A DNA stretch of 46,836 nucleotides from a virus: positions 1,417 through 48,252 of IMG/VR virus record IMGVR_UViG_3300030389_004010, one strand, 5' to 3'. Below, piece by piece: positions 2,843-46,779 of this stretch; positions within the stretch are counted from its first letter, which is position 1; each line of letters starts with the position of its first letter. The translations under genes were made by a program, and so were the position numbers. A model generated the notes under the pieces. The model was not told the DNA's origin. It did no database searches and saw nothing but the letters and a program-made list of their open reading frames with translations.

Positions 2843-2870
2843 TGTATATAGTTTTAAGTTTGTATTTTAT

Positions 2871-7528: not shown

Positions 7529-7957
7529 ATGGGATTTAAACTAGGCAAAGGTAGAGTACAAAGTATGTATGGCGGCGTTATAAGTAAAAAAATGCGCTTT
7601 GGCCAAGAAGCAGGTAGTGACGCTTCTGTGCCTGGTACTCCTGTTGTTAGAAAACCATTAGGTGAAGGAATATTAGGTGAAGCTAATATGGATGGTAGTA
7701 TATATATTAACGAAAGCATAGTACCTGGTAGCAAAGAAGAGGCACAAGTAATTAACCACGAAATGAGACACGCTACAGATATGAAAACAGGTAAGTTAGC
7801 TTATGGAGATGATTTTGTTAAATGGAACGGCAATATATATCCAAGAGAAGATAGAAACGGTAAAGATATGATAAAAGTAGATGGGCAATGGAAAGAAGCA
7901 GGTACACATGACTTTCCTTGGGAAGAAGAAGCAAATAACGGAAATAAAAACGTATGA
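7529..7957 (+). CDS. HExxH metallopeptidase-like protein, 142 aa
   Basis: The motif H-E-M-R-H at residues 77-81 fits the zinc-binding and catalytic HExxH of zincin metallopeptidases; the downstream F-P-W-E-E-E stretch (about 129-134) could supply the third ligand. The preceding Y-I-N-E segment is where a supporting strand is usual. No signal peptide is present. It directly precedes, and overlaps by four bases (ATGA), the holin gene, so it could act in lysis, or it could process virion proteins. Activity is inferred from the motif only. Confidence 0.65.
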   Translation: MGFKLGKGRVQSMYGGVISKKMRFGQEAGSDASVPGTPVVRKPLGEGILGEANMDGSIYINESIVPGSKEEAQVINHEMRHATDMKTGKLAYGDDFVKWNGNIYPREDRNGKDMIKVDGQWKEAGTHDFPWEEEANNGNKNV

Positions 7958-28593: not shown

Positions 28594-29361
28594 ATGAATA
28601 TAGTAGGATATCAATCACCATTTAAAAAAATATCATCAGTAACACCTTCGCCATTAAAAAGCGCTGTACTTGGTCAAGTAGCTTTAGCCGCTGCGCCAGG
28701 TATTATAACTGCTGTTGGTAGTTTATTTGGTAGAAAAGCAAGGCTAAGAGAGCAAAGAAAGGCTAGAGAAGAAATGAAAAAAGCTAGAGCTGCTTTTGAA
28801 GCTATAGAGTATGTAAATCCTTATGCTGATTTAACTAACCCTTACGCTGAAAATATATACGAAGATATGACTGTAGATACTCAAGCTGCAGACTATTTAA
28901 AACAACAACAACAACAATCACAAGCTAATATAATGCAACAGTTTAGAGGCGCTGCTGGTGGATCTGGTATAGGTGCTCTAGCGCAGTCACTTTCTAATAT
29001 AGCTGCTAGCCAAGCACAACAAGCTTCTGCTCAAATAGCACAACAAGAAAGATCTAACGAAGCCCTTAGATTACAAGGCGCTCAAAGAAAACAAGAAGGA
29101 GAGTTTGGTGTCGATAAAATGAAAGCTTATGGAGAAGCTTTACGTAGACAACAAGAAGACACTAGGACAGAAGCTTTATTTGGTTTGTCTATACAAAGAA
29201 AAACAGCTGCAGACAGAGCAAGACAATTAGCTAGACAACAATTAATAAGCGGTATAGGTAGTGCTGCTGCTGGTGTGGCTGGATTATACGCTCCAGGCGG
29301 TGCTAGAGCAGGCAAGTTTGGTGATGACTATAAAGATTTAACAGAGTTTTTTACTAAATAA
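28594..29361 (+). CDS. Internal virion/ejection-type protein, 255 aa
   Basis: The N terminus has an Ala/Gly-rich hydrophobic segment (L-G-Q-V-A-L-A-A-A-P-G-I-I-T-A-V-G) followed by a basic stretch, then a long Gln/Ala-rich helix (about 100-190), then a second small-residue segment (L-I-S-G-I-G-S-A-A-A-G-V-A-G-L) near the C terminus. This mix of glycine-zipper-like hydrophobic segments and Gln-rich helices is typical of podovirus internal core proteins that are ejected into the cell envelope. The next two genes fit the same role. Confidence 0.7.
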   Translation: MNIVGYQSPFKKISSVTPSPLKSAVLGQVALAAAPGIITAVGSLFGRKARLREQRKAREEMKKARAAFEAIEYVNPYADLTNPYAENIYEDMTVDTQAADYLKQQQQQSQANIMQQFRGAAGGSGIGALAQSLSNIAASQAQQASAQIAQQERSNEALRLQGAQRKQEGEFGVDKMKAYGEALRRQQEDTRTEALFGLSIQRKTAADRARQLARQQLISGIGSAAAGVAGLYAPGGARAGKFGDDYKDLTEFFTK

Positions 29362-29368: not shown

Positions 29369-31831
29369 ATGGCAGAAGAAAATAACGAAAATAATAAAGA
29401 CATGTTTGCTGTAGACGAGGCTTTAGGTACTATAATGGGTGCAAAAGGTCCTAAGCTAGTAGACACTAAAAAAGTAGACGAAGCTATTAGTCAAATAGAA
29501 AAACCACTTAGTAGTAGTGTTTATGATCAACTAGCAGCTATGTATAGATCAAAAGGTGAAGGCGCCGTATTACGAGCGCAAAAAAACATGCAGAGTTTAT
29601 TTTTACCTACTATAAATTTAATAAAAGAAAGAGAAGCAGATGCTAAAGCTAGATATGCTTTATTAAAAGATCAATTAGAAGAATTTGATGACTCTACTAT
29701 ATTTGGTCAGGCTGATGGTACTGAAATGCCTATAGTTGATGAGATTAAGAATTTAGCTAACACAACAAAAGAATACATGCGTGAGCTTTCTCGTTTAAAT
29801 CCAACTGACGATAGGTACGACGAACTGCGTAAAAAAATCAAAAAAAACAATGATGCTATAGCTAAGTTTGATGATATAAACAAAAAATTACTAGAGATTA
29901 GAAACGCTCAAGATGGTAGTGATGATGATAGTCTTTGGAGTACATCGATGACTGAGACTGAAAGAGATATGTGGATGGATATATACAATGGTAGAGGCGC
30001 TAATATAAAAATTCAAAACGGTGAACTAGTTTGGACAGATACTAGCGGTAAAACAAAATATAATTTTAGTGATATTTCTGACTATGGATCTAAACGGGAT
30101 GCGTTAGGTGGTGACGATACTGACTTAGGTACTCTTCATTTTCTTACTATGGATGGCAGTGAACAAGGCACTAGAAGTTCAGGTTTTTTTAATGACAAAA
30201 AAGGTGATGTTAAAAAAATACAAACAGCGTTAAATAATCTAGGCTTTACTGATGATGATGGAAACAAATTAAAAGTAGATGGTAATTTTGGTGACAAAAC
30301 AGAAGAAGCTTATAATAAATACTTAGCAAAAAAAGATGAGTTAGAACAAGCTTATTTTGATGAAAATTTATCTGAAGATGATATAAAAAAATATAATATT
30401 ACTACTGAAGTTACGGGTGTAGGCGAAACAAGAACTATTGAATTAAGTAAAATTAATAGTGGACCTACTTTATTAGCTAATGATGCTACTAACGCAGAAA
30501 TAATAATACAAGGAAAAATTTCAGAACTTATAAATCAAGGCGTAACTACTGAAAGTCCTATTTATCAAAGAGCTATTAAATCTATGATTTTTCAACTTGG
30601 TCAATTAAAACCAAATGGTATAAAATCTTTAATATTTGACGGTATTGGTGCAGATGATGATGATATATTTACAAGTATAAACACTGATAGTTTTATACAA
30701 AGTATAATAAGTAATCAAAAAAACGCTGAAGTATTTAACATTAAAGATGTTGATAATATTACTCCACAAGAGTTACAAAATGCTATTGAAAAATTAAAAA
30801 GTAATGATATAACTTTTTCTTATTTTAATCAAAATAATGAAAAGAAAAGTTTACGTAAGCTATTTTTAGAGTGGTACAAAGGACAAGCAGATGCTAGAGT
30901 TGATGCTGGCGTTGTTGATGCTGGAGTTAGAACAAATATAAAAGGCGGAGGTAGTGGCGGACGTAGTGGTGGAGGTGGTAATAAAAACAAACCAACTTCA
31001 TCTAGCTTTAAAGATTATACTAGCACTTATGGCGATGGTAAAACTTATCTTCCGTCTAGTGCAATTTCTGTTCCTGTTTTTGGTAATGATGGACAGCCAT
31101 TGCTTGACGCAAATGGTAATCCAGTTACAAGAAGATTTGATGCTAATCAAATACAAATTACTTTTGAAAATGGACAACCTGCAATACAGTATGATCCAAA
31201 CGATGAAAACACCAAATACCAACTGTCAAGAAATGAAACTATAGATACCTACGTACGTATTTATGGGAAAAAGGAAAGAGAAAATATAGTAAAATTTGTT
31301 GATGAGCAAATAGCAAGTGCTACTACAGAAACAGGTGAAGATTTAAACACAACTTATAGTGGTGAACCAATACTTAAAGTCGAAACGATGAACGAAGAAG
31401 ACAAAATTAAATATGACGAACTGACTAGAAAGCTAGATAATTTACTAGTAAAAGACACTGCTGTAGGTGGTAGACAATTAAGCGGTGGTATATTACTAAA
31501 TTATGGAGATGATGATTTTGTTGTTAATAGCTTGAATAGAGAGTTTGGAAAATTTGGTTTTGAGTTTGAATACGAAGATTTGGGTATGTTTGAATCAGAT
31601 GCTTTTATAGTTAGGTATAAAAATAATGGCTTTACCATAAAATTTGATACTACGATGGACGACTATGAAAATACTAGAAAATTAATAGCGATTATGAAGG
31701 CCTTGTATTTAAAAGACGAGAAAAAAGCCGCTAGAATATACTCTGGTGAAGATACATCATATAAACCACAAATAAACCCTGAAGATATAGCGACTTATAG
31801 TACTGGTGAAGGACCTGGAGTTAGGTATTAA
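29369..31831 (+). CDS. Ejection-type protein with peptidoglycan-binding motif, 820 aa
   Basis: A largely helical, charged protein. Residues about 278-322 read as a peptidoglycan-binding repeat: V-K-K-I-Q-T-A-L-N-N-L-G, then K-V-D-G-N-F-G-D-K-T-E-E-A-Y, the classic Q-x-x-L-x-x-L-G and V-D-G-x-F-G-x-x-T pattern. A Gly-rich linker (G-G-G-S-G-G-R-S-G-G-G-G, about 526-537) separates the N-terminal half from a C-terminal beta/alpha part. As the neighbour of internal core proteins it is a candidate for guiding DNA through the cell wall. No lytic catalytic residues are evident. Confidence 0.7.
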   Translation: MAEENNENNKDMFAVDEALGTIMGAKGPKLVDTKKVDEAISQIEKPLSSSVYDQLAAMYRSKGEGAVLRAQKNMQSLFLPTINLIKEREADAKARYALLKDQLEEFDDSTIFGQADGTEMPIVDEIKNLANTTKEYMRELSRLNPTDDRYDELRKKIKKNNDAIAKFDDINKKLLEIRNAQDGSDDDSLWSTSMTETERDMWMDIYNGRGANIKIQNGELVWTDTSGKTKYNFSDISDYGSKRDALGGDDTDLGTLHFLTMDGSEQGTRSSGFFNDKKGDVKKIQTALNNLGFTDDDGNKLKVDGNFGDKTEEAYNKYLAKKDELEQAYFDENLSEDDIKKYNITTEVTGVGETRTIELSKINSGPTLLANDATNAEIIIQGKISELINQGVTTESPIYQRAIKSMIFQLGQLKPNGIKSLIFDGIGADDDDIFTSINTDSFIQSIISNQKNAEVFNIKDVDNITPQELQNAIEKLKSNDITFSYFNQNNEKKSLRKLFLEWYKGQADARVDAGVVDAGVRTNIKGGGSGGRSGGGGNKNKPTSSSFKDYTSTYGDGKTYLPSSAISVPVFGNDGQPLLDANGNPVTRRFDANQIQITFENGQPAIQYDPNDENTKYQLSRNETIDTYVRIYGKKERENIVKFVDEQIASATTETGEDLNTTYSGEPILKVETMNEEDKIKYDELTRKLDNLLVKDTAVGGRQLSGGILLNYGDDDFVVNSLNREFGKFGFEFEYEDLGMFESDAFIVRYKNNGFTIKFDTTMDDYENTRKLIAIMKALYLKDEKKAARIYSGEDTSYKPQINPEDIATYSTGEGPGVRY

Positions 31832-31853: not shown

Positions 31854-34800
31854 ATGTCTGATACATTACAACAATTAATTAATAAGAAAATCAACGAAAA
31901 ATTCGCTACAAACATTGTTTCTGGACAACCACAGGTAGAAACTAACATAAGTGACTCTGAAAAGTTTTTAAATATTTTTCAAAACGCAGGAAGAGGTTTA
32001 CAGCAAGCTTTTTATTCTACGCAAGTAGCTAGTTTAGAAATATCTGATTACTTAGGTTTTGGTAACGAGTTTATGATAGATAATTTAATTAAAGAAAAAT
32101 ATTCAGACATAGAAAAACTTAACAAAAAAATGGAATACACTGGCAAAGGTATTGTCGGTGGTTTTAAAGATGGTGACGTATCAGATATAGGTTTAGGAAT
32201 AACAAATGCTTTGACCAGTGTTGTAACCACAGTTGTACCCGCTATGCTTACGAGAGGTGCTTCTTTAGTACCACAAATTGCCGCTCCAATGTACACTGAG
32301 TACAATATGGAAAAAGCTAAGAATTTGTATGGTAAATATGATGTAGACGGATCTATAAAAAAATTATTAGATAATAATGAAGATGAAGTACTTGCTCCTG
32401 TAGTTTTAGGTCTTACCGCAGCTGCGCTTGAAAGAGTTGGTTACAAAGGTATAACTAATTACATGTTAGATAGAGCTAAAACACAAGGTGTTAAGCGTAT
32501 AATTGGTCTAGTTAGTACTGGAAATCGAGAGGGTTTAACAGAATATTTTCAAGGCGGATTAAACGCGGCTAATAAAGCTTTAGCAATAGGAAAAAATCCT
32601 ATTAAATCAGTTTTTAATCACTTAACTAGTCAACAAGCTTTAGAAGAGTATTTACAAGGTTTTGTTGGTGGTACTGGTATAAGTGCTAGTGGTAGAGCTA
32701 TAAACAATGCTATTAGAAGTGATCAAGATAATTTAATAATAAACTCGTATATTACAAAACTTGGCGCACTACAACAAGAAAAAGTAATGTCAAAAACTCA
32801 AGATGCTAAAAAAGCTATAGATAAAAAAATTAAAGAAGCTGAAAATGAGTTTAGAGATTTTTTAATAAAAAAACGTAAAAAATCTAAGTTTGTAACAAAA
32901 GAACAGGCAGATGAATTAATAAGTAATTTAGAGTCAAAAAAACAGTTAAATAAAAAGCTAGAAAATATTGAAAATCAGTTTAGAAACGGTGAAATAAACC
33001 AAAACGAATACAATATTATAGTAGAAGATATAAATAAAGATATACAAGCTTTAAATAAAAAAGCAGAAACTATAAGAATAGAAGCTAATAAAAAATTTTT
33101 AACACAAGATCTTAGCGTTACTAAAACAGCTATAAGTAAAGTGTTAGGTTTAGAACAAAAAGTTTATAAAACTGAACAAGAGTTTTTAGATGCTTATAAC
33201 GCTAAAACTGGTAAAAATCTTACGTTAAATGATATAGAAGGTGTAGACGGCGTAAAAGTAGGTGATGAAATAATGATAAATTTAGAAACAGCTGCTAAAA
33301 CTAATGCTGTTACAGTTGGTTCTCATGAATTATTGCACGCTATACTTAAATCTTCATTAACTAGTAAAGAATTCAGAAAAATTACAGATAAAGATGGTAA
33401 TATAATTAAAGACACTAAAGGTAACGCTATTGAAACAGATCTAACCGAGGAAGGCGAGAAATTAATAAGAGATTTTTTAAATACCTTAAGTAAAAAAGAA
33501 AGGGCTGTAGTAGACAAAAGAATAAATAACAATTACAAATTTAACGAAGATGGTTCAGAAAAAGAATTTGCAGAGTATGCTGAAGAGTACTTAAACGCTT
33601 ATGCTGATGCTGCTATAAAAAATGAACTAACTGATAGTATTTTAGTAAAAATAGGTAATTTTTTATCTAAAATATTTAATAAAGGTGATAAAGGTTATAA
33701 AAATTTAAAGTTTAAAACAGGTGAAGATGTCAAAGCGTTTTTAAAAGCTTATGTGTCTGATGCAAAAAAAGGTGAGTTTAGACAAGAGTTTATTGATTTA
33801 GCACAAGAAGGTGTAGATCAAGGTCCTACTACAAAAAAAATTCCAACTAAAAAAACAGGAAAAGGAAGAAAACAAATTGATAAAATTAAAAAAGATTATG
33901 AAGCTGCAAAAACTCCTGAAGAAAAATTAAATATAATACAAAGGTTTATTAACAATGTGTATCAAGGATCTGATGCTACTCAAGAAGAAATAGATTTTTT
34001 TAATAATGAAATAAAAGCTCTTAAAAAAGAAGGATTTGAATTAGAGATGAATTTTCAACCTGGAACTCAACTTTCAGAAGGAGATATTGTAGACATAACA
34101 GCTTCAATACCTGATAACACTTTACCAGAAGGAGTGACAATAGTAAGTCGTGTAAGCACTCCTGGTATCATTAAAGATGGTAAAAAAGTAAATAGAACAG
34201 TAGTAGAAACTAGAAAGGGAACTAAAAAAAGTAATAAAAGAGAGGCGTTAGTTAAAGAGGTAAATAGAGCTCAAGACATGCCAGGGCAAGGAAAAAATAA
34301 ACTAGAAGCAATAAAAAAAGCTAGACAAGCTCTTAGTGATTTTGATAAGCAATTTCAAAAAACTTTTAACCTTGCCGATGCAAAAGGTAAGCAATCTTCT
34401 GAGTTTGTAGAAAAAAAATCTATGTCTCGAGAAGCTAAGCAACAAATATCTGACAACGTAAAAGAAATAGGTGATACTTATAGTTTTGAAGGTGGTAAAA
34501 AAGCTTGGAACGAAGGTGGTGCTGATAACGCTATAACAGAAATAAAACAAAATAACTATTTAGATGATTTAATTGCAGCTAAATTTAAGGGTGATAGAGT
34601 ACCAGTGGACTTTGTAGATAAAGTATATACTGAACTTACTAGTCATATTAGAAATTTTAATCCAGAAACAAACGATAACTTATTTGGTTGGATAAACTCA
34701 CAAATAGGAAATAAAGCTGGTAACGTATTTAATAGAGAGTACAAGACTACTACAGAACAAAGAACAGCTAAAGATGTTGATGATAGAACAAAAGAGGGTG

Positions 34801-37800
34801 AAGTAAAAGTACAGGTTGAAGCAGAGCAAGACATTACTTTACAAGAACTAGAAGAGTTAGATTTATCACCTCAAGCTGTAGCTAAAAGAGAGGCGCAAGA
34901 AAACAAAAGAAAGGAAACAGTATATTCTAAGTTAAGACAAAAGTTAGGTATAGAAACTGGTAGTGAATTATATAATAGAGTATTAGACGCATCGAAAAAA
35001 GCTTTAATAAGAGCTTACGAAGTAGGTAAACCTGTTAGAAAGATCCAGAGAGACTTAAAAGACGCTGCTAATACCTATATATTCAAAGAGATTAAAAACA
35101 TGTTAGGTGTAGGTAAGAATTACATACCTACAATAAAAAATCTTAGAGAGTCTATTGTAGAGTCTATGTTCGTAGCAGACTTAGTACAAATGGAAAGAAA
35201 CGTACCAGATAGTGAAAAAGTATTTACTAGGTTTGTAAAAAATCTAACTTCAAAACAAGAGGTACAAGATGCTGTAGATCAAAACAAACTTCCACCATCT
35301 GCTTTAAACACTATAGATAAAGGACAGTCTGTTGCTTTGTATGAAAAAGTAATGCCTACAGAAAACGAGTTTGTAGGGTTTTTTGATCAACCACTTGTAA
35401 CAGCTCAAGGAGTAAGATCTGGTTTAAAAGGTACTAGAAAAGATCAGTTAGCTAAATATCTAGCTAATTCACTATCATTAGATGCTATGTTACAAGTAGC
35501 ACAAGACCCAGAAGTAGCACAAAAAAGACAAGACTTTGCAGAGTTAAGAGGTGAGTCTATAGCTGAAAACGATTTACAAGTATTAGCCGCTACAATTGGT
35601 AGAGATGTTAACGTTAAGTTTTCTAAAAGTAATGCTGTTACAGATATTGATGCTGCCATAGACAACAGTGAAAATACTGATGTTTACTTGCAAATTAAGT
35701 TTTCTAAAAGCCATAGAGATCAGTATGAAGCAAGGTTAGAAAAGAAAAGACCTGATCTTACAGAAGATCAAAGAAAAAAAGCTGTACAGTCCGTATTTGA
35801 TTTTATAGATGGTAAAGATATACCAAACAACAAAAAAGCTAAGTACGAAAAAATGGCTATGCACTACATGGCTAATGGTTATTTAATACTACCTGAAGAC
35901 GGTTATAAAGTTATAGAAGCTGATAGAATAGCAGGTATAAAGAAAATAGATCCGTTATCTTACAAAAATCCTAATGTTTTAATAGAAGAAAACGTAGCTG
36001 ATGTTAAAGGAAAGAAAACTAATCCAGATAAAGTTAAAACATTTACTAATAAAACAGAGTACGGTAATGGTGTTGTGGTATACGATGTAGAAGACTCTAA
36101 ACAAGGACAAGAAGACGTTAGAAAAGTAATCGATACACACTTTGGTAAAAAAGCAAACCCTTGGTGTTTATGCGCTAGAGATGAAAGAGTTGATCAGCAG
36201 TACAAAAAGTTTGATAACAAACAAGAAGCCAAACGTTATGCTGACGAGATGAAAGCTAGAGGTTATAAAATAGAAATAGGAGTTCTTCAAAACGAGTACG
36301 AAGTGTTTGCTGATTTAATAGGTGATAAAAGCAAAGAGTTAGATGCTGCTTTTGGTGCGTGGAAAAGCTACAATAAACAAGGCAATGGATTTAAAATAGC
36401 TTTTCATAATGGTAACTTAGTTTCTTTTAGAGACGGCAACAATATGAAGTGGTGGGACAGAATGGATAAACCTACGGATGCTGTTGTTGTAAAAGGTAAA
36501 AAAGTTGGTGATGGTTTTAGAGAAGTCATACAAGTAGATGAAAATAAAACTACTTTACTATATACAGAAAAACAAATTGGTGATTCAAAAACTGGTAGTT
36601 ATACTAAGAAAAACCTTGATGGTGACATAGTAGAAATAATAACTACGAAAAACGGTTTTAAAGATGGTAAACAGTTTGAAGTAATAGATAAAGTATATTA
36701 CAATGCCGAATTTACCACTATATATGAAAATGGAGACGCGATACGTAAAGAAGAAGTAAGAACGCCATATAAAAAAATTAAAGGAAAGGCAAAGACTGAG
36801 AGAATAGGAGTAGGTAATGATGAACTTCGTTTAAAAAATATTACTAAATGGAAAAGAGTAATTATTAAAGAAAGTCCAGGTAAATCTTATGTAGAACTAG
36901 AAGGTACGGTTAGTCAATCATACTTTGAACAAGCTCAAAATCCTGAAGCTATTACAGACCCGTTTATAAAGAAAAACTTTAATTATTTAGTAGAATCTAA
37001 CCAAAGATATTTTCCTTTACAAGATAAAAAAGTAAGTGTTGTTAAAAAATCTAAACCTCAAAGTTTCTTACCTGATGGCGAAGTAACTATAGACGGTGAA
37101 GTACAAACAGAAAAAGTTAAGTTTTCTAAAAGCGCAGTTAATGATGTTAAATTTAGTTTAAGTGAACTTCAACAAGATAGAAAAACTTTACCTGCTATAT
37201 TAAAGAAACAACTTGAAGTTGAGCAAAGAGTTTTAGATAATCCAACAGCAGAAGATATATATTTGTTAGAAAAATTAAATGATTTAGAAATTGCTATAAA
37301 AGATAATGTTAGTTATAAAGAAGCTTTTGAAACGTTTTTAAATGGCATGCCTCAAGATGTTAGTAGTTTATTAGTTGACTTTAAAGATATTAATAGTTTT
37401 GAAAACTATATTAAAAATGTTTCAGTTCCAGCAATAAGAACTTTAGGATTTAAAGCTGCAAAAACTTATTTTAAAAATAAATTTGACTCTTTAACAGAAA
37501 CTAAAGACAAAGTAGATTTAATAGCTAGTTTCTTAAAAAATATAGGTATATCTGTTAGAGCAGGAAAAGGACTAGAAGTTAGTTTTATTAATCAAGAACT
37601 TCTTGATGGTCCTATTACAGATATTTTTGGAAAAGAGTTTGTAAGCAAACATTTTAAAATAGCTGATATAAACGAAGGTGGTAAAAAAGGTAAAACAATA
37701 ACTTACAGCTACGATGGTAAAAAAGGAAGTTTTGAAAAAGTTTCTTTATATAAAGACATAGATGCTATAAAAAATTCTAGAGGTGAATCTAATATTGTAA

Positions 37801-40800
37801 CAGAGGTAAATAGAGAAGCTTTAGAAGCTAGAGAATTTGTCAACGAAATAATAGAAAGTGATTTAAGTATATCAGAAAAACTAGCTATAATTGATTTATT
37901 ATCACTAAACCAAAGAGGTGCTATTAGAAAAATGTATATGTTTGGTGAAACTGTTACCGAACAAGTAAAAACGCCTAGTATAGGTTTGGTTCTGGAACAT
38001 GAAATAACTGTTAAAAACATGACTAAATACTTAAGACAAAGAGTCAAAGGTATTTTAAGTGAATCACAATTAAAAGAAATTGTAGACCAAGCTAAGGTTC
38101 ATGTTTGGCCAAAACAAATAGACACTATTTTAAATGAACAAAAGTTACGTCAAGAAGGTGGTAGATCAAGGTATCAAAATGTTAAAGTAAAAAAATACTT
38201 ACAAAATTTAGCTAACAAAGGGCAAATAACTAACATGCCTAATAAATTACAAGAAGTTAATAATTTAAAAGAAGCTGTTAAATTTTCTAGATCTACTAAA
38301 AATCCTACAAAAGGTATTACTATATTAGACTTTGACGATACATTGGCTACTAGCGCTTCTTTAATTAAGTTTACTAGACCTGATGGAACTAAAGGAACAT
38401 TAACACCTGAGCAGTATGCTAGTACTTATGAAAGCTTATTAGATTTAGATTATAAGTTTGACTTTTCTGAATTTAGCAAAGTAGTTGATGGCAAGCCAGC
38501 GCCGTTATTAAATAAAGCTAAAAAACTGGCAGGTAAATTTGGTACTAAGAACATGTTTATATTAACTGCTAGACCAGCTGATTCAGCACTTGCAATACAA
38601 AAGTTTTTAAAAGAAAATGGTTTAAATATACCATTAGAAAATATTACTGGACTTGGTAACTCAACAGCTGAAGCTAAAGCTATGTGGGTTTTAGGTAAAG
38701 TATCTGAAGGTTATAATGATTTTTACTTTGCAGACGATGCAATACAAAATGTTAAAGAAGTAAAAAACGTGTTAGAGCAAGTAGATGTTAAATCAAAAGT
38801 ACAGCAAGCTAAACTAAAATTTAGTAAATCATTAGACAAAGACTTTAACGATATAATACAGGATGTAAAAGGTATAGAATCTAAAAAACGTTTTTCAGAA
38901 GCAAAAGGTAGAGCAAGAGGCCAAGGTAAAGGTAGGTTTAGATTTTTTATACCACCATCACACGAAGACTTTGTTGGTTTGTTATATAACTTTATAGGTT
39001 TTGGTGAGAAAGGTAATAAACATAGAGACTTTTTTGAAAAAGCATTAATTAAACCGTTAAACAGAGCGTTTAGAGAATTAAACGTAGCTAAACAAGCTAT
39101 AGCTAATGACTATAGAGCTTTAGTTAAAAGCATGCCAGAAGTTCGTAAACGTTTAGGTGAAAAAATATTAAAAAGTGATTACACTGTAGAAGACGCTATA
39201 AGAGTTTACTTGTTTGACAAAGCTGGTTTTGAAATACCTGGTTTAACTAAAACTGATTTAAAAAACCTAACTAATTTTGTTAAACAAAACTCTGACATAT
39301 TACAGTTTGCTGATCAAGTAGGTAAAATATCAAGAGTTGAAGAAGGTTATATATCACCAGGTGATAGTTGGCAAGCTAGCAATATTAGATATGATTTAGT
39401 TGATGCTACTGGTAGAGTTGGTAGAGCTAAGTTTTTTACAGAGTTTCAAGAAAATGTAGATATAATATTTTCTGATGAAAATATGAATAAAATTAGAGCT
39501 GCATTTGGTGACAATTTTGTAGAAGCTTTACAAGATATGCTTTATAGAATTAAAACTGGTAATAATAGACCTACTGGTAATAACCGTATAGTTAATAAGT
39601 TTTTAGACTGGATAAATGGATCTGTTGGTGCTACGATGTTCTTTAACGCTAGATCTGCTGTATTACAGACGTTATCTACAGTTAACTTTATAAACTTTGG
39701 TGATAATAATATATTTAAAGCAGCAGCAGCTTTTGCTAATCAAAAACAGTTTTGGAAAGACTTTTCGTTTTTATTTAACTCTGACTTTTTAAAACAAAGA
39801 CGTAGTGGCGCTGCTTTTGATGTAAACGCAAACGAAATAGCTAGAGAAGTTGCAGGCTCTAAAAATCCTGTTTTAGCGGCAATAAAATATTTATTAAACA
39901 TAGGTTTTTTACCTACGCAATTAGCCGATAGTTTTGCTATTGCTAGTGGTGGTTCTACTTTTTACAGAAACAGAATTAATTCTTACTTAAAACAAGGTTT
40001 ATCACAACAAGAAGCAGAGTCAAAAGCATTTATTGATTTTCAAGAAATAGCTGAAGCTACACAGCAGTCTGCTAGACCTGACATGGTATCGCAACAACAA
40101 ACTTCTACACTTGGTAGAATTATACTTGCGTTTCAAAACGTTACAGCACAATATGCTAGATTAATTAAAAAAGCTACACTAGACTTAGTAAACAGAAGAA
40201 GAAGCAGGAGTTATCAAACACAGATACAAAGCGACATGTCTAATATATCAAGAATAATATATTATGGTGCAATACAAGCTGTTATATTTAATGCTTTACA
40301 AAATGCTTTATTTGCTATGATGTTTGATGAAGAAGAAGAAGATGAAAAGAAAACTGAAAAGTTTTTTGATACTAAAAAACAAAGAGTAATAAACGGTACT
40401 ATAGACAGTTTATTAAAAGGTTTAGGTGTTGGAGGAGCTGTTATTGCTACATTAAAAAACTATGCTATTAAACTTAGTGAAAATTTAAAAGATGATAGCT
40501 TCTTTAAAACACCAGCTTGGGAACAGTTGTTACAACTATCACCACCTATTGGTATTAAAATAAGAAAAATAGCTAGAGCTGAAAGAAACTTAGAGTGGAA
40601 TAAAGATGTACTTACAGAATTACCATTAGATAATCTTGATAATCCTATATATGAAACAAGTGCTACGTACATAGAAGGTTTTACAAATGTACCTACAGCA
40701 AGATTACTTAGAAAGATACAAAACTTAAACGCTGCACTTGATAGTGAAAACAAATGGTGGCAAAGAATAGCTTTAGCAGCTGGTTGGAGTAGATGGGACG

Positions 40801-41270
40801 TTGGTATACAAGATAACGAAATGAAAGAAGCTAAAAACGCTATAAGAGAAAATAACAAGCGTATAAATAAAGAAACTAAGTTAAAAGAAGCTACACCAGA
40901 AGAAAAACTAAAAATAGTAGAAAAGTCTGTATTTGATTTAAATAAAAACGAGCAAGTAAAAATACTTGAAGCTAATAATTTAAATCCTAAAAAATATCCA
41001 AAAGAAGCAGATAGAGTAGATGCTATTATGAATTTACGTAATAAAAACAAAAGAAAAATAGATTCTACAATTACTGCTATTGAAAATTATATACCTACAG
41101 AAAAAGAGCAAAGATCTATAGACTTATTTAAAATGAACAAAAAAGACCAAGTAAATATGTTGATTGATTTAGGTTTGTCTTCAAAACAAATAAAAAAATT
41201 AAAATACGAAGAAGACAGAGTAAATAAAATTATAGAGCTACAAGATAAAAATAAAAGTAAAAAACGTTAA
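31854..41270 (+). CDS. Giant polyvalent ejection protein, 3138 aa
   Basis: A multi-domain protein of the phage large polyvalent type. In order: helical part with a small-residue stretch (residues about 105-150); zincin motif H-E-L-L-H at 491-495 with a later E-E-Y-L-N-A-Y-A-D as possible third ligand; a region resembling a sigma-factor fold (about 925-1000, weak); unknown modules with N-P-W-C-L-C-A-R-D near 1435; HAD phosphatase with D-F-D-D-T at 2159-2163, I-L-T-A-R-P and F-A-D-D-A; a long helical C-terminal region with hydrophobic segments; two helical repeats at the end. K-F-S-x-S linkers occur at 1255, 1282, 1756, 2143 and 2322, with variants at 1766 and 2346. Probably packaged and ejected with the DNA; enzyme activities are inferred from motifs. 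Confidence 0.85.
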   Translation: MSDTLQQLINKKINEKFATNIVSGQPQVETNISDSEKFLNIFQNAGRGLQQAFYSTQVASLEISDYLGFGNEFMIDNLIKEKYSDIEKLNKKMEYTGKGIVGGFKDGDVSDIGLGITNALTSVVTTVVPAMLTRGASLVPQIAAPMYTEYNMEKAKNLYGKYDVDGSIKKLLDNNEDEVLAPVVLGLTAAALERVGYKGITNYMLDRAKTQGVKRIIGLVSTGNREGLTEYFQGGLNAANKALAIGKNPIKSVFNHLTSQQALEEYLQGFVGGTGISASGRAINNAIRSDQDNLIINSYITKLGALQQEKVMSKTQDAKKAIDKKIKEAENEFRDFLIKKRKKSKFVTKEQADELISNLESKKQLNKKLENIENQFRNGEINQNEYNIIVEDINKDIQALNKKAETIRIEANKKFLTQDLSVTKTAISKVLGLEQKVYKTEQEFLDAYNAKTGKNLTLNDIEGVDGVKVGDEIMINLETAAKTNAVTVGSHELLHAILKSSLTSKEFRKITDKDGNIIKDTKGNAIETDLTEEGEKLIRDFLNTLSKKERAVVDKRINNNYKFNEDGSEKEFAEYAEEYLNAYADAAIKNELTDSILVKIGNFLSKIFNKGDKGYKNLKFKTGEDVKAFLKAYVSDAKKGEFRQEFIDLAQEGVDQGPTTKKIPTKKTGKGRKQIDKIKKDYEAAKTPEEKLNIIQRFINNVYQGSDATQEEIDFFNNEIKALKKEGFELEMNFQPGTQLSEGDIVDITASIPDNTLPEGVTIVSRVSTPGIIKDGKKVNRTVVETRKGTKKSNKREALVKEVNRAQDMPGQGKNKLEAIKKARQALSDFDKQFQKTFNLADAKGKQSSEFVEKKSMSREAKQQISDNVKEIGDTYSFEGGKKAWNEGGADNAITEIKQNNYLDDLIAAKFKGDRVPVDFVDKVYTELTSHIRNFNPETNDNLFGWINSQIGNKAGNVFNREYKTTTEQRTAKDVDDRTKEGEVKVQVEAEQDITLQELEELDLSPQAVAKREAQENKRKETVYSKLRQKLGIETGSELYNRVLDASKKALIRAYEVGKPVRKIQRDLKDAANTYIFKEIKNMLGVGKNYIPTIKNLRESIVESMFVADLVQMERNVPDSEKVFTRFVKNLTSKQEVQDAVDQNKLPPSALNTIDKGQSVALYEKVMPTENEFVGFFDQPLVTAQGVRSGLKGTRKDQLAKYLANSLSLDAMLQVAQDPEVAQKRQDFAELRGESIAENDLQVLAATIGRDVNVKFSKSNAVTDIDAAIDNSENTDVYLQIKFSKSHRDQYEARLEKKRPDLTEDQRKKAVQSVFDFIDGKDIPNNKKAKYEKMAMHYMANGYLILPEDGYKVIEADRIAGIKKIDPLSYKNPNVLIEENVADVKGKKTNPDKVKTFTNKTEYGNGVVVYDVEDSKQGQEDVRKVIDTHFGKKANPWCLCARDERVDQQYKKFDNKQEAKRYADEMKARGYKIEIGVLQNEYEVFADLIGDKSKELDAAFGAWKSYNKQGNGFKIAFHNGNLVSFRDGNNMKWWDRMDKPTDAVVVKGKKVGDGFREVIQVDENKTTLLYTEKQIGDSKTGSYTKKNLDGDIVEIITTKNGFKDGKQFEVIDKVYYNAEFTTIYENGDAIRKEEVRTPYKKIKGKAKTERIGVGNDELRLKNITKWKRVIIKESPGKSYVELEGTVSQSYFEQAQNPEAITDPFIKKNFNYLVESNQRYFPLQDKKVSVVKKSKPQSFLPDGEVTIDGEVQTEKVKFSKSAVNDVKFSLSELQQDRKTLPAILKKQLEVEQRVLDNPTAEDIYLLEKLNDLEIAIKDNVSYKEAFETFLNGMPQDVSSLLVDFKDINSFENYIKNVSVPAIRTLGFKAAKTYFKNKFDSLTETKDKVDLIASFLKNIGISVRAGKGLEVSFINQELLDGPITDIFGKEFVSKHFKIADINEGGKKGKTITYSYDGKKGSFEKVSLYKDIDAIKNSRGESNIVTEVNREALEAREFVNEIIESDLSISEKLAIIDLLSLNQRGAIRKMYMFGETVTEQVKTPSIGLVLEHEITVKNMTKYLRQRVKGILSESQLKEIVDQAKVHVWPKQIDTILNEQKLRQEGGRSRYQNVKVKKYLQNLANKGQITNMPNKLQEVNNLKEAVKFSRSTKNPTKGITILDFDDTLATSASLIKFTRPDGTKGTLTPEQYASTYESLLDLDYKFDFSEFSKVVDGKPAPLLNKAKKLAGKFGTKNMFILTARPADSALAIQKFLKENGLNIPLENITGLGNSTAEAKAMWVLGKVSEGYNDFYFADDAIQNVKEVKNVLEQVDVKSKVQQAKLKFSKSLDKDFNDIIQDVKGIESKKRFSEAKGRARGQGKGRFRFFIPPSHEDFVGLLYNFIGFGEKGNKHRDFFEKALIKPLNRAFRELNVAKQAIANDYRALVKSMPEVRKRLGEKILKSDYTVEDAIRVYLFDKAGFEIPGLTKTDLKNLTNFVKQNSDILQFADQVGKISRVEEGYISPGDSWQASNIRYDLVDATGRVGRAKFFTEFQENVDIIFSDENMNKIRAAFGDNFVEALQDMLYRIKTGNNRPTGNNRIVNKFLDWINGSVGATMFFNARSAVLQTLSTVNFINFGDNNIFKAAAAFANQKQFWKDFSFLFNSDFLKQRRSGAAFDVNANEIAREVAGSKNPVLAAIKYLLNIGFLPTQLADSFAIASGGSTFYRNRINSYLKQGLSQQEAESKAFIDFQEIAEATQQSARPDMVSQQQTSTLGRIILAFQNVTAQYARLIKKATLDLVNRRRSRSYQTQIQSDMSNISRIIYYGAIQAVIFNALQNALFAMMFDEEEEDEKKTEKFFDTKKQRVINGTIDSLLKGLGVGGAVIATLKNYAIKLSENLKDDSFFKTPAWEQLLQLSPPIGIKIRKIARAERNLEWNKDVLTELPLDNLDNPIYETSATYIEGFTNVPTARLLRKIQNLNAALDSENKWWQRIALAAGWSRWDVGIQDNEMKEAKNAIRENNKRINKETKLKEATPEEKLKIVEKSVFDLNKNEQVKILEANNLNPKKYPKEADRVDAIMNLRNKNKRKIDSTITAIENYIPTEKEQRSIDLFKMNKKDQVNMLIDLGLSSKQIKKLKYEEDRVNKIIELQDKNKSKKR

Positions 41271-41310: not shown

Positions 41311-41589
41311 ATGGCAAAAGAATTAAACGAAGATACAGGTTTTGTATTAAGCATAAAAACATTAATAGGTATAGGATTTGCAATAGCAACTATAGCTGGT
41401 ATGTGGTTCACGTTACAAGCTGATATTGCAGAAGCAAAAGAGTTACCAGCACCACCAGATCCTGAAGTCACACGTTTGGAGTTTGATATGAAAGACCAAA
41501 TGATACGACAAACTATTATGACTACACAAGAAGACGTTAAAGAAATTAAGAAGTCTATTGAAAAAATAGAAGAAAAACTTTACGAATAA
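41311..41589 (+). CDS. Single-pass membrane coiled-coil protein, 92 aa
   Basis: Residues about 12-35 form one hydrophobic segment (L-I-G-I-G-F-A-I-A-T-I-A-G-M-W-F), followed by a Pro-rich hinge (L-P-A-P-P-D-P-E-V) and a charged coiled-coil helix (about 50-92). The layout fits an inner-membrane spanin or another lysis accessory protein, but a structural anchor is possible. The stop overlaps the start of the next gene (TAATG), linking it to the exported-protein cassette. Confidence 0.7.
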   Translation: MAKELNEDTGFVLSIKTLIGIGFAIATIAGMWFTLQADIAEAKELPAPPDPEVTRLEFDMKDQMIRQTIMTTQEDVKEIKKSIEKIEEKLYE

Positions 41590-41927
41590 TGAAAAAAATT
41601 ATATTAATAATATTAATGTTTTTATTTGTGAGCGCTAATGGCCAAAACATTTGCAAAACAGATGTGTGTGTAGTTGAGTTTAATGCTAGTTGGAACAAAG
41701 CTAATAGTGTAGACTGGTTAAGTAAATTAAATGATTGTGGTGTTAAAAGAATAAATATAGATGAAGGTGATTGGCAAAAAAAGTATAATATAGTTGTAGT
41801 ACCTACAATTATAATTTTTAACGGTGAAGAAGTAAAACGTTATCAAGCAGATCTTAGTTTTACCATGTCTGCTACAAGAAAAGAAGTACAAGAAGAAGTT
41901 GACGAACTAATAATGAGTGACTTTTAA
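41589..41927 (+). CDS. Exported thioredoxin-fold protein without CXXC
   Basis: A signal peptide (residues 1-19, M-K-K-I-I-L-I-I-L-M-F then S-A-N-G-Q) precedes a 93-residue thioredoxin-like domain: V-V-E-F-N-A-S-W (28-35), then N-K-A-N where the catalytic C-x-x-C should be (36-39), and V-V-V-P-T with the conserved cis-proline (P72). Cys remain at 22, 27 and 50. It is shorter than thioredoxin at the C terminus. A catalytic disulfide role is unlikely; a binding or scaffold role in the periplasm is more plausible. Coupled to the upstream membrane gene. Confidence 0.7.
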   Translation: MKKIILIILMFLFVSANGQNICKTDVCVVEFNASWNKANSVDWLSKLNDCGVKRINIDEGDWQKKYNIVVVPTIIIFNGEEVKRYQADLSFTMSATRKEVQEEVDELIMSDF

Positions 41928-41928
41928 A

Positions 41929-43839
41929 ATGAAAAAACTACTACAATATATATTTATATTTTTATTATCCATTAATACGGCTTACTCGCAATGCCCTCCT
42001 GGTACGTGGAATTTAAATATTACTATAAATCCAGATCAATATCCAGAAGAAACTTCTTGGTATATAATGGATTTTTGGGGTGACACACTTGTATACGGCG
42101 GTCCTTATACTAACATAATAGATTATGAACCACAATACGCTAGTGTGTGTGCGCCTATAGATAGTTTTTATATTGTTATAAATGATTTATACGGAGATGG
42201 TGTTGCAGGTAGTCAGTGGGGTGGAAATGACGGATCTTTTTATATAGAGCAATGTGGAGATACTATATGGGAATTACCGTTTGCTGCTTTTGGCTTTCAA
42301 ATATATGATACGATTTATACGTCTGGTTGTCCACCACCACCGCCTGTATTTGGTTGTATGGATATTAATTATGTAGAGTTTAATCCAGCCGCTACACTAG
42401 ATACAGGTATGTGTTTTACACAAAAAATATATGGTTGTACTGATTCTTTAGCTTTTAATTACGTAGACACGGCTAATACTAATATAAATATAGACAGCTG
42501 TTTACACGAGCTAGAATTAACAGATTTAGCTGGTAATGGTTGGGCTGGCTCTAGTTTAAAACTTTCACAAGCTACAAGTGTAATACCACCGTTTAACTAT
42601 CAAGACATTGGAACTTATACTTTGATAGATGGTTTTGATACGACATTTTTTATAAATTTAGTAGCAGGTTATCCTGTTAGAGCGGTTTTTGAAATAACAC
42701 AGCAGTCTGATTTTACAGCTGTACAATGTGGTTATAGCCTATATTCAGAAGATTATGTAGCAATAGATATTGAAGGTGGCTTTGTAAATCCAATACCACC
42801 GTTTTTTCCTGTTACAGGCCAACCTTACTGTGGTAATACTTGCATAGAAAAAATATTTGGATGTACTGATACTATAGCTATAAATTACGATAGTCTAGCA
42901 AACACTGATGATAATACGTGTTACTATAATCCAGGCTGTATGAATCCTATTTATTTAGAGTACGATACTTTAGCTGATTATGACGATGGTAGCTGCTCTA
43001 CATTAGTAGTGCTTGGCTGTATGGACTCAACAGCTTTTAATTACAATCCTGATGCTAACGTAGAAATACAAGGCTCTTGTATACCGGTTGTAACTGGGTG
43101 CATGGAAAGTCTAGCATTAAACTATAATCCGCTAGCTAATACGCCTGATACGTGTATAGCATACGTTTACGGTTGTACTGATAGCACGATGTTTAACTAT
43201 GATAGTTTAGCAAACACCGATGACGGTAGTTGCCAGCCATTTGTCTATGGTTGTATGGACTCAACAATGTTTAACTTTAATCCGCTTGCTAATGCTCAAG
43301 ATACTAATAATCTTTGTGTTCCTTATATATATGGTTGTACTGATCCGAGTATGTTCAACTACCAAGCTGAAGCTAATACAGAAGATTTTAGTTGCATACC
43401 ATTTATTTATGGGTGTACTGATAGTACCGCTATTAATTATAACCCACTTGCTAATACTGATAACAGCTCGTGCATTGAAGTGGTTGTCGGGTGTATGGAT
43501 CAAGACGCGTGGAACTACGAAGAACTAGCAAATGTACCTGACACTTGTTTATTTGCTGCTGAGTGTATAACAGGACCAGGTGAGCCGTATTGGTTAAACG
43601 ATCCGTGTTATGCTTGGGTAATAGATGTAGATGAGTATTGTTGTACAAACGACTGGGATAGTATATGTCAATTAACTTACGATTACTGCGAAGGAACTTG
43701 GGTAGGGCCAGTGCCCCAACGTATATCACAGCTAATAATGATAACAGATATATTAGGTAGACCTGCTGAAATAGGAAGAAATAAATTATTGTTCTTTATA
43801 TACAAAGATGGAACAGTTGAAAAGAAATTTATAAAATGA
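41929..43839 (+). CDS. Secreted repeat protein with T9SS sorting tail, about 636 aa
   Basis: I choose ATG 41929 over the upstream GTG 41917, because it opens a good signal peptide (M-K-K-L-L-Q-Y-I-F-I-F-L-L then T-A-Y-S-Q). Two beta domains with G-D-G or G-N-G-W turns alternate with 11 Cys-rich repeats of the type G-C-(T/M)-D-S-x-x-x-N-Y-x-x-x-A-N-T-x-x-x-x-C. The last 37 residues (I-T-D-I-L-G-R-P through F-F-I-Y-K-D-G-T-V-E-K-K-F) match a type IX secretion C-terminal sorting domain. The protein should cross the outer membrane through the host T9SS. Its N terminus follows the thioredoxin-like gene, and its stop overlaps the next gene (ATGA). Confidence 0.8.
   Translation: MKKLLQYIFIFLLSINTAYSQCPPGTWNLNITINPDQYPEETSWYIMDFWGDTLVYGGPYTNIIDYEPQYASVCAPIDSFYIVINDLYGDGVAGSQWGGNDGSFYIEQCGDTIWELPFAAFGFQIYDTIYTSGCPPPPPVFGCMDINYVEFNPAATLDTGMCFTQKIYGCTDSLAFNYVDTANTNINIDSCLHELELTDLAGNGWAGSSLKLSQATSVIPPFNYQDIGTYTLIDGFDTTFFINLVAGYPVRAVFEITQQSDFTAVQCGYSLYSEDYVAIDIEGGFVNPIPPFFPVTGQPYCGNTCIEKIFGCTDTIAINYDSLANTDDNTCYYNPGCMNPIYLEYDTLADYDDGSCSTLVVLGCMDSTAFNYNPDANVEIQGSCIPVVTGCMESLALNYNPLANTPDTCIAYVYGCTDSTMFNYDSLANTDDGSCQPFVYGCMDSTMFNFNPLANAQDTNNLCVPYIYGCTDPSMFNYQAEANTEDFSCIPFIYGCTDSTAINYNPLANTDNSSCIEVVVGCMDQDAWNYEELANVPDTCLFAAECITGPGEPYWLNDPCYAWVIDVDEYCCTNDWDSICQLTYDYCEGTWVGPVPQRISQLIMITDILGRPAEIGRNKLLFFIYKDGTVEKKFIK
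42349..43548 (+). repeat. Eleven Cys-rich 22-residue-type coding repeats
   Basis: Repeats 1-2 lie in about 42349-42500 and repeats 3-11 in about 42856-43548, with a beta domain between. The unit is about 22 to 24 codons, with G-C-(T/M)-D at the start and a Cys at the end; each probably holds a Ca-binding or disulfide-stabilised loop, as in bacterial thrombospondin-type-3-like repeats. DNA identity between units is moderate, so they are old or codon-diversified. Confidence 0.8.
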
Positions 43840-44865: not shown

Positions 44866-45264
44866 ATGCCAGGAAGTGAAAGACAAAACAATATGTTTGA
44901 TGCATCGCCATTAGATTTTAAACAAAAAAATAATCCTTTTAGCGTTACTAGTTGTGGTAGACGTAGAAATACAGGTACACCTATTTTTGCTAAAGCTGAA
45001 CCACGTAGAACAATAGGTAAAGGTAAAAACTTTAATAAAGTATCTAAAAATAAAAAAGCTAGAGGTGGCGCAGCTGGTGGTGGTATGACTGAAAAAGGCG
45101 TAAGAGAATATAGACGTAAAAATCCAGGTAGTAAATTAAGAACAGCTGTAACAAGTAAAAATCCATCAAAAAAAGATGCTGCTAGACGTAAGTCGTTTTG
45201 TGCTAGATCAAGAAACTGGAAAAGTGAAAGAGGTTTAGCAGCAAGACGTAGATGGAGGTGTTAA
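44866..45264 (+). CDS. Basic DUF6321-like protein, 132 aa
   Basis: Strongly basic. The C-terminal half reads G-M-T-E-K-G-V-R-E-Y-R-R-K-N-P-G-S, then R-R-K-S-F-C-A-R-S and a terminal R-R-R-W-R-C, the pattern I recall for the DUF6321 family of viral proteins. The N-terminal half is Asn- and Lys-rich. Probably nucleic-acid binding. It starts one base after the OMP-like gene and begins a run of small basic genes. Confidence 0.7.
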   Translation: MPGSERQNNMFDASPLDFKQKNNPFSVTSCGRRRNTGTPIFAKAEPRRTIGKGKNFNKVSKNKKARGGAAGGGMTEKGVREYRRKNPGSKLRTAVTSKNPSKKDAARRKSFCARSRNWKSERGLAARRRWRC

Positions 45265-45275
45265 AATAATAAATT

Positions 45276-45521
45276 ATGAGTAAACAAAAATTAAAAACAA
45301 TATCCGGTAAATTAAAAAAAGCTAGTAAAGCACATGCTAGTCAAGCTAAAAAAATAGACGGAATAATATCAGCAATGCCTATGAAAAAAATGAAAAAATC
45401 ACCTGCTTTAAAAAAACTAAGTGCTAGTTGTAAGGCAGCAGCGAAAAGAAAATTTAAAGTTTATCCATCTGCGTACGCTAATATGTGGGCTGCTAAAACG
45501 CAGAGACAAGGTAAGTGTTAA
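45276..45521 (+). CDS. Small basic protein with Y-P-S-A-Y-A-N motif, 81 aa
   Basis: An 81-residue Lys-rich protein. The C-terminal part R-K-F-K-V-Y-P-S-A-Y-A-N-M-W-A-A-K is a motif I recognise from small viral and phage proteins (DUF5872-like), often with a final Cys as here. Probably binds nucleic acid. Overlaps the next start (TAATG). Confidence 0.7.
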   Translation: MSKQKLKTISGKLKKASKAHASQAKKIDGIISAMPMKKMKKSPALKKLSASCKAAAKRKFKVYPSAYANMWAAKTQRQGKC

Positions 45522-45793
45522 TGTATACGCAAGGTAATAATCCATTTAAAAAGCGTATGGGTAAATTTAAACACTCAGACGCGCCAGATGCTAAAGGTAA
45601 ATTTAAAAGTTTATCACCATCGGCTTTAGCAAGTTGGATGATTAAGTCTCGTAAAGGTAACTTGTCTAGAATAATAAGTAGTTTAAATCAGCAAGTTGTT
45701 TTTAATAGAGGTAAAAATCCTAGTTATGCTGCTAAAATGAAAACTACTATGAATATAGTTAGAAAACGTTTAGGTAAAAAGAAAGATGAGTAA
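45521..45793 (+). CDS. Small basic hypothetical protein, 90 aa
   Basis: I choose ATG 45521 (M-Y-T-Q-G-N-N-P-F-K-K-R), which overlaps the previous stop as TAATG, rather than the upstream GTG at 45515. The 90 residues are Lys/Arg-rich with helices (A-S-W-M-I-K-S-R-K-G-N-L-S-R-I-I-S-S-L). The N-terminal N-P-F-K-K-R is similar to motifs in neighbouring genes. Function unknown; probably nucleic-acid related. Confidence 0.65.
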   Translation: MYTQGNNPFKKRMGKFKHSDAPDAKGKFKSLSPSALASWMIKSRKGNLSRIISSLNQQVVFNRGKNPSYAAKMKTTMNIVRKRLGKKKDE

Positions 45794-46244
45794 AGCATAT
45801 AGAGGTGTTTTAAAAGCTAGAATTAATAAAATTTACGGTGGAGATGTAACTATAAATAAATGCAGGCGTTTAAAAGCTAGAAAAAGTGCTACTGCTAGAG
45901 ATAAACAACTATGTAACTGGTTTATTAATATGCAGACTAACAGGCCATCACCAACTAAAAAACGTAAAGATCCTTTAGTAGGCACAGGTAAAAAACCTAA
46001 AGGTAGTGGTAGGCGTTTGTATACAGATGAAAATCCTAAAGACACTGTACGTATAAAATTTGCTACTCCTAGTGATGCTAGGGCGACCGTAGCTAAAGTA
46101 AAAAGAATAAATAAGCCTTACGCACGTAAAATACAAATATTAACTGTAGGAGAGCAGAGAGCAAAAGTAATGAAGAAGACACAAGTTGCTGCAATATTCA
46201 AACGTGGTAAAGAAGCAATAAGAAAAGCAAGAAAAAATGTTTAA
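45786..46244 (+). CDS. Basic hypothetical protein, 152 aa
   Basis: A 152-residue basic protein with a central G-T-G-K-K-P-K-G-S-G-R-R-L-Y-T-D-E-N-P then V-R-I-K-F-A-T segment, which I recall in other marine phages, and a C-terminal helix ending R-K-A-R-K-N-V. It overlaps the upstream gene by eight bases and the downstream gene by eight. No known function. Confidence 0.7.
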   Translation: MSKAYRGVLKARINKIYGGDVTINKCRRLKARKSATARDKQLCNWFINMQTNRPSPTKKRKDPLVGTGKKPKGSGRRLYTDENPKDTVRIKFATPSDARATVAKVKRINKPYARKIQILTVGEQRAKVMKKTQVAAIFKRGKEAIRKARKNV

Positions 46245-46779
46245 AGATTTTAACATATCAAGTTTTAAAAAAATGAAGCCACCAGGTGATAATACATTTG
46301 ATACTTCACAAGAAATTAAAGCGCTTGCTAAAATACCTTTAAAAAAAGAGTTTGTAAAGAAGTTTGACAATATAGAGTCTGCGTTTGCTAAAACAGCTAA
46401 AAACAACAATATAGAAAACTACGATAAAAAAATACCGGCTAAACTTATAAAAGAGTCTGCGCCAATAATATTAGAATTAAAAAAACATTTTAACAGGCCA
46501 AGACCAAAAGTATTAGCTAAAAAAATGAATATAAAAATGAAAGATTATGAGATGTCTTCAATGAAAACACCTTCATATCCTTCAGGACACTCTGTTCAAG
46601 GCATATTAATAGCTAAAGTTTTAGGTGATAAATACCCTAAAGCTAAATCAGCTTTTGTTAAAACAGGTGAAAATATATCTTATAGTAGAAGGGTTGCCCA
46701 CGCTCACTATAAGTCAGATAGTAAAATGGGCGAAAAACTAGGTAACTCAATGTATAAACATATAAAAAACAAAATTTAA
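46237..46779 (+). CDS. Soluble PAP2-superfamily phosphatase, 180 aa
   Basis: The three signature motifs of the PAP2 (acid phosphatase/lipid phosphatase) superfamily are in order: K82-x6-R89-P90, P115-S-G-H118, and S150-R151-x5-H157-x3-D161. H157 would be the nucleophile and H118 the acid/base. There is no membrane segment or signal peptide, so it is a soluble phosphatase acting on phosphate esters in the cytoplasm or in the virion. It lies in a run of small basic genes, which gives no clear substrate. High confidence in the family, low in its role. Confidence 0.85.
   Translation: MFKDFNISSFKKMKPPGDNTFDTSQEIKALAKIPLKKEFVKKFDNIESAFAKTAKNNNIENYDKKIPAKLIKESAPIILELKKHFNRPRPKVLAKKMNIKMKDYEMSSMKTPSYPSGHSVQGILIAKVLGDKYPKAKSAFVKTGENISYSRRVAHAHYKSDSKMGEKLGNSMYKHIKNKI

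Follow-up and report, generated by a model that had tools for sequence, protein, structure and literature searches.

P0001, a gene in the window (the 46,836-nucleotide stretch analysed here, which sits within a 48,252-base IMG/VR virus record), encodes a chain of seven or more units: N-terminal membrane-type segments, a zincin, a sigma-2-like module, the WWDR and EH modules, a Pnkp-like HAD and a helical C-terminal module. We favour, with a probability of roughly 0.58, the reading that P0001 is a polyvalent ejection polyprotein of a short-tailed Bacteroidetes phage, which would be packaged, threaded into the host and processed by its zincin, and would bring sigma-2-like and HAD activities with it. 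Its architecture, its conservation, the exchange of its modules and its genomic context were observed directly and are described below.

P0001 is the last gene of a conserved virion block

The following features define the gene, its two upstream neighbours and its terminal regions.

31854..41270, + strand: P0001 polyprotein gene; ATG start, 3138 aa, one unbroken ORF
28594..29361, + strand: 255-aa protein, first of the three-gene block that ends in P0001 (genomic context)
29369..31831, + strand: 820-aa virion-block protein with a peptidoglycan-binding domain (Pfam PG_binding_1, E=2.2e-5)
32187..32249, + strand: N-terminal hydrophobic segment 1, aa 112-132 (Kyte-Doolittle window)
32388..32444, + strand: N-terminal hydrophobic segment 2, aa 179-197 (Kyte-Doolittle window)
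38871..41267, + strand: conserved C-terminal module with three hydrophobic segments, aa 2340-3138 (relatives' coverage, Kyte-Doolittle window)

The unbroken ORF occupies about 20% of the window, in agreement with the fifth given by the first-pass annotation. The hydrophobic segments that this annotation placed at both ends were also recovered, two near the N-terminus and three in the C-terminal module (aa 2673-2691, 2805-2824 and 2849-2867). The gene is under purifying selection: dN/dS against the relative L001 was 0.06-0.45, module by module, with the HAD at 0.06.

TerL, portal and MCP of the window matched head-and-packaging PHROGs and were nearest to those of the Flavobacterium elemovirus, Cellulophaga phages, Maribacter phage Panino and MW202828. 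The virion block is syntenic with those of elemovirus, MW202828, phi38:1 and Panino, each of which carries a giant last gene (3694, 3859, 1691 and 1829 aa, respectively). P0001 is likewise the last gene of its block. The positional counterparts in elemovirus and phi38:1 are annotated as 'structural protein'; the one in phi38:1 goes back to similarity with a different Cellulophaga phage and is therefore not counted as direct proof. The source phage is marine and of flavobacterial type, and P0001 is probably carried in the virus particle. That P0001 might instead be an early, non-virion multifunctional enzyme acting inside the cell is improbable, given that every relative has the gene within the virion block and that the elemovirus and phi38:1 counterparts are annotated as structural.

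Several other genes of the window were recorded in passing. GroEL-like (521 aa) and GroES-like genes (4631-6440) are also present in elemovirus, phi38:1 and MW202828. Downstream of P0001, positions 41589-41927 encode a protein with a signal peptide that weakly resembles thioredoxin (TIGR01068, E=0.0012, under the cut-off) and lacks a CxxC motif. It is followed by a 640-aa secreted-looking protein (41917-43839) with GC(M/T)DSxAxNYNxxANTxDxSC-type repeats and no Pfam or NCBIfam match, whose C-terminal end, ...GRNKLLFFIYKDGTVEKKFIK, resembles a type IX secretion sorting signal by eye. Four small, very basic Lys/Arg-rich proteins are clustered downstream of the virion block (44866-46244), and a PAP2-superfamily phosphatase (Pfam E=2e-7, past the cut-off) is encoded at 46237-46779.

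Relatives share a constant core and exchange upstream modules

Searches of whole P0001 against Pfam, PHROG, NCBIfam and PADLOC returned nothing significant, and the module claims therefore rest on IMG/VR relatives. With tblastn, no relatives turned up among INPHARED phages; the one stretch matched, at 28%, lay in a gut contig lacking annotation. From IMG/VR we collected 4 loci with whole P0001, 65 with a C-terminal profile and 20 with the WWDR module (with some overlap), in all 64 distinct proteins of usable length plus further contigs with one module. The mid modules of 51 relatives gave no convincing Pfam match.

The HAD and the C-terminal module (aa ~2150-3000) are common to all relatives, and upstream of the HAD the coverage of P0001 ranges from 0 to about 30 relatives. 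L001 is 86% identical to P0001 over aa 846-3138 and only 24% identical where the N-terminal part aligns. L002 and L003 share 68-71% identity with P0001 up to aa 1257-1261, are divergent until aa 2130-2135 and then return to about 80%. The WWDR module precedes the HAD in P0001 and follows it in L021, L029 and four more contigs; the module is headed by [IV]K[FY]S[KR] in nearly all cases. By sequence comparison, then, the HAD and C-terminal unit is constant, and phages exchange the modules upstream of it, in many cases at [VIL]KFS[KR]S linkers. Profile comparison of the C-terminal module with the counterparts in cultured phages yielded no recognisable match.

These data bear out the description of P0001 as a polyvalent protein with several enzyme modules, a zincin and a HAD among them. 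As to the suggestion that each module is a candidate early effector, the HAD and the C-terminal part form a constant core, so that not every module is equally likely to be an accessory effector. The module list of the first-pass annotation held for the zincin and the HAD; it missed the sigma-70-region-2-like module (aa ~864-1250) and the polynucleotide-kinase affinity of the HAD.

K-F-S linkers mark module borders

Five linker features were assigned.

35613..35630, + strand: linker VKFSKS, aa 1254-1259; homology with 10+ relatives stops here
35694..35711, + strand: linker IKFSKS, aa 1281-1286; borders the WWDR module on its N-terminal side
37116..37163, + strand: double linker VKFSKS..VKFSLS, aa 1755-1770; no homology break of relatives within 15 aa
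38277..38294, + strand: linker VKFSRS, aa 2142-2147; homology with 29 relatives begins within 15 aa
38814..38831, + strand: linker LKFSKS, aa 2321-2326; junction where L021 and L029 carry the inserted WWDR cassette

The motif [KR][FY]S[KR] occurs at five sites in P0001 versus none in the 8,329 residues of 14 other window proteins. Across the 64 relatives, KFS[KR] was found 64 times versus 6.4 times in shuffled sequences (maximum 13 in 100 shuffles), an enrichment of about 10-fold, and KFS.S 49 times versus 2.5. Of the internal C-terminal ends of homology blocks, 31% lay within 12 aa of [KR][FY]S, compared with 3.4% at random positions, in a set where relatives are not independent and BLAST ends tend to halt at conserved words. 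A broader border test gave a 4.6-fold enrichment of the linker motif, with controls at 0.8, 1.1 and 3.0; the last of these is a KF[TA]K-type motif, and part of the border signal may therefore be general to linker-like sequence. Permutation of linker placement within P0001 itself was not significant (P=0.11) because homology breaks are dense in this protein, and the junction claim therefore rests on the family-wide tests and on the relocation of the WWDR cassette. Together with this movement of the WWDR module along with its linker, the enrichment over shuffles and the ends of homology blocks uphold the K-F-S linkers that had been proposed at module borders, and on sequence grounds we regard the motif as a real junction marker. 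Some relatives carry a looser [FY]S[KR] in place of the strict linker.

Serine codons of both families (TCN and AGY) are used at different KFS junctions, so the motif is kept as a peptide and not as DNA. For the same reason, a role as DNA recombination sites was rejected as the main explanation of the linkers. A preference for AAG ahead of F runs through these genes in general (366 of 575 KF pairs).

A zincin with invariant catalytic residues and the question of linker cleavage

33144..33653, + strand: zincin metallopeptidase domain, aa 431-600; HELLH at aa 491-495, Glu at aa 578; 32-sequence alignment

The predicted zincin motif was confirmed as HELLH with a downstream Glu, both invariant in 32 relatives; these were picked by HE[LVFYI][LM]H, and the downstream Glu was found independently of that selection. 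In nearly all full-length members HExxH is present as a single copy upstream of the other modules, and it is absent from 5 of 72 (L019, L037, L038, L055 and L059). With the zincin profile, the domain was also recovered in MW202828 and in elemo gp18 (26 bits; 3.3e-9 among the 11 proteins searched). The giant protein of MW202828 (3859 aa; L078:741-12320) contains HExxH twice, and its N-terminal ~100 aa are also present in L069 and L060. Elsewhere in the window, a small protein with HEMRH and a weak Peptidase_M91 match (7529-7957; E=0.038) is a second possible zincin.

A rather unlikely idea is that the zincin cuts at the KFSKS codewords and thereby frees interchangeable effector cassettes in the infected cell, including a sigma-like unit that would redirect host RNA polymerase ahead of all phage gene expression. 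The linkers may be only flexible joints or borders tolerated by recombination. One such account, which we take as a serious contender somewhat short of even odds, holds that the K-F-S motifs are border peptides tolerated or favoured at joins, for instance as a helix cap at many module starts, left behind by shuffling rather than serving as protease sites. It accommodates the motif that heads the WWDR module in each of its locations, as well as the several zincin-bearing relatives without a strict linker, but it sits less easily with a peptide that is kept at non-homologous junctions with different codons. Four of the five members without HExxH also lack a strict [KR][FY]S[KR], which again speaks against it, in small numbers and related sequences.

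A sigma-70-region-2-like module

34443..35603, + strand: sigma-70-region-2-like module, aa 864-1250 (profile, Pfam, Foldseek, hhalign)
34497-34781, + strand: sigma-like core inside this module, aa 882-976

The 'FNPETNDNLFGWI / YKPESGVPLAAYI' motif of the module at aa 864-1250, which is present in 43 proteins of the collection, pointed to sigma-70 region 2 before any search. A profile built from 35 relatives (A8) and run against all PDB sequences placed SigE first (E=0.0013), with SigK at 0.02 and RpoH at 0.31; sigma factors made up 7 of 11 among the matches listed. Pfam Sigma70_r2 was matched by one member at 7.6e-4, and the window's own sequence had no Pfam match. The AF2 model of the module reached a pLDDT of 80. 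In Foldseek, the N-terminal domain of SigE had the highest probability among the matches listed (0.63, TMt 0.66), and several other sigma factors were also among them; no match had an E-value below 0.001 and overall TM-scores were low. With hhalign, a small sigma alignment gave E=6e-4, and P0001 tiles outside the module gave 0.05 at best; this alignment was entered by hand, and its RpoH row matched PDB exactly. Profile A4 found no match in PDB to a region-4 helix-turn-helix, the part of a sigma factor that serves the -35 element, which is why we call the module 'sigma-2-like' and not a sigma factor.

We consider it more likely than not that the module is a true sigma-70 region 2 homologue. The competing explanation, a convergent helical bundle with no role in transcription, is a less probable but credible one, for the E-values are modest, the overall TM-scores low and region 4 missing, and one sigma subtype searched alone was not significant. 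Convergence would have to account for the fact that profile, Pfam, Foldseek and hhalign independently point to the same family, and for the lack of any coherent PDB family in the profile searches with five other modules (C-terminal, WWDR, EH, HAD and zincin).

WWDR and EH modules

35712..37103, + strand: PWC/WWDR module with a MORN-like beta-rich tail, aa 1287-1750 (motifs, AF2)
37164..38273, + strand: EH module, aa 1771-2140 (conserved [ED]H motif)

The WWDR module of P0001 carries NPWCLC at aa ~1434 and KWWDRMD at aa ~1532. In line with the conserved Trp/Cys motifs noted earlier, most relatives that have the module also carry PWC and the W-x-R-M/N-D core. AF2 models of the WWDR and EH modules were confident (pLDDT 79) and had no PDB match; no Pfam family matched either. 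The pLDDT values of about 79-80 for the modelled modules support the separate folds anticipated between the linkers. The sole significant match of the WWDR/EH models in BFVD was an uncharacterised protein of Virus NIOZ-UU157 (6e-18), followed by MORN-repeat proteins at E about 0.01. An assignment of the EH module as an HNH nuclease was dropped, as neither profile nor fold supported it. In L003 (aa ~1220-1290) and L002 (aa ~1200-1260), the module that replaces WWDR/EH shows a PD-(D/E)xK nuclease-like pattern by eye (GANDIMISNKRGDVYSVEIKMD; FGFESKLGIA).

A Pnkp-like HAD phosphatase

38295..38807, + strand: HAD-superfamily phosphatase, Pnkp-like, aa 2148-2318 (four motifs, phrog_415, Pfam HAD)

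All four catalytic motifs of the predicted HAD phosphatase (DFDDT at aa 2159, LTARP, K and DD) are invariant in 26 relatives, which substantiates the original assignment. Sixteen of these 26 matched phrog_415, polynucleotide kinase (best 1.7e-5; P0001's own module 6.4e-4), and five matched Pfam HAD; the HAD profile had no match among PDB sequences. L017, L026, L031 and L067 contain a P-loop kinase nested inside the HAD, between motifs I and II, which was Pfam AAA_33 (3e-12) or Zeta_toxin in the two tested. Judged by these matches, the HAD is closest to phage polynucleotide kinases. Its phrog_415 affinity and the nested kinase point to nucleic-acid end healing, with substrate and purpose put forward here as proposals.

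Proposed role of P0001

In the reading that we favour, packaging, injection, cleavage, RNA polymerase binding and end healing are the steps that we infer. Late packaging would proceed through the constant C-terminal part, and the chain would be threaded into the host together with the first DNA to enter. Either before or after this transfer, the zincin would cut in cis at the linkers or close to them. The freed sigma-2-like unit might then bind host RNA polymerase and favour early phage transcription, the HAD could heal 3'-phosphate ends where host defence has damaged DNA or RNA, and the WWDR and EH modules may act as early effectors.

P0001 could also be mainly a structural or ejection-channel protein, similar to T7 gp16. 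Its terminal helices would then span the envelope, most of the inner domains would serve as passive spacers, and the zincin would target the cell wall or virion assembly. Its place as the last of three genes, after the 255-aa protein and the 820-aa protein with its peptidoglycan-binding domain, would fit such a channel, as would the hydrophobic segments at both ends and the constant C-terminal part. Passive spacers, however, are hard to reconcile with invariant catalytic residues in zincin and HAD and a HAD dN/dS of 0.06, and whole modules of distinct families are swapped, a behaviour more characteristic of effectors than of channel proteins. We rate this alternative as unlikely.

Comparison with known systems

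The ejection proteins gp14, gp15 and gp16 of T7 are encoded by three consecutive late genes, the largest last, and have membrane-type segments. The gene order of the 255-aa protein, the 820-aa protein and P0001 resembles this ejection block; P0001 differs from the T7 proteins in its many more enzyme-like modules, and no lytic transglycosylase domain of the T7 gp16 type was matched in it by Pfam. T4 Pnkp is a polynucleotide kinase/phosphatase with kinase and phosphatase in tandem. P0001 resembles it in its HAD of phrog_415 type, to which four relatives add a P-loop kinase. In contrast to T4 Pnkp, these relatives have the kinase nested inside the HAD and not next to it in tandem, and the unit forms part of a polyprotein.

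Polyvalent proteins of phages and conjugative elements were proposed in 2017 to be injected early effectors, with injection and autoprocessing as part of the proposal (Iyer et al., 2017, PMC5512222). P0001 resembles them in joining unrelated enzymatic domains in one chain, in its zincin, a hub domain in that class, and in its late virion gene context with portal and terminase. With zincin, sigma-2-like, HAD, WWDR and EH modules, it contains the two or more disparate domains by which the class is recognised. P0001 thus belongs to a known class, and what is new is the module resembling sigma region 2, the HAD core of Pnkp type and the shuffling at linker borders; the words sigma, phosphatase, haloacid and linker do not occur in the main text of that study (PMC5512222). 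No report of a virion sigma factor was found in the open-access literature searched, coverage of which is incomplete.

N4-like phages (Schitoviridae) have a virion RNA polymerase, likewise a giant polyprotein of the virion that includes a zincin, which serves to start early transcription (PMC5512222). Pfam, PHROG and NCBIfam detected no RNA polymerase domain in P0001, whose link to transcription would be the sigma-like module instead. For PhicrAss001, a podovirus of Bacteroidetes, large proteins stored in the virion have been proposed to be threaded into the host (PMC10172136); unlike P0001, this cargo consists of separate proteins, including RNA polymerase subunits, and a zincin is not mentioned in that report. 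If the sigma-region-2-like module of this virion-type protein is what it appears to be, early transcription would start in a manner unlike that of the N4-like and crAss-like virion RNA polymerases.

A cultured counterpart is gp18 of Flavobacterium phage elemo (Elemovirus; 3694 aa), which shares the syntenic position and a homologous zincin with P0001. Homology to the HAD, the sigma-like module and the C-terminal part was undetected in elemo, and strict KFS linkers are absent there. As a cultured phage with a homologous zincin, elemo makes packaging in this class and processing by that protease testable, in a protein without linkers or sigma-like module. In P0001 and its relatives, one recognisable linker marks many borders, so that the sequence itself reveals module limits and offers defined sites at which to test for cleavage. 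Such linker-marked borders bear on the question of how the domains of polyvalent proteins are joined, swapped and released.
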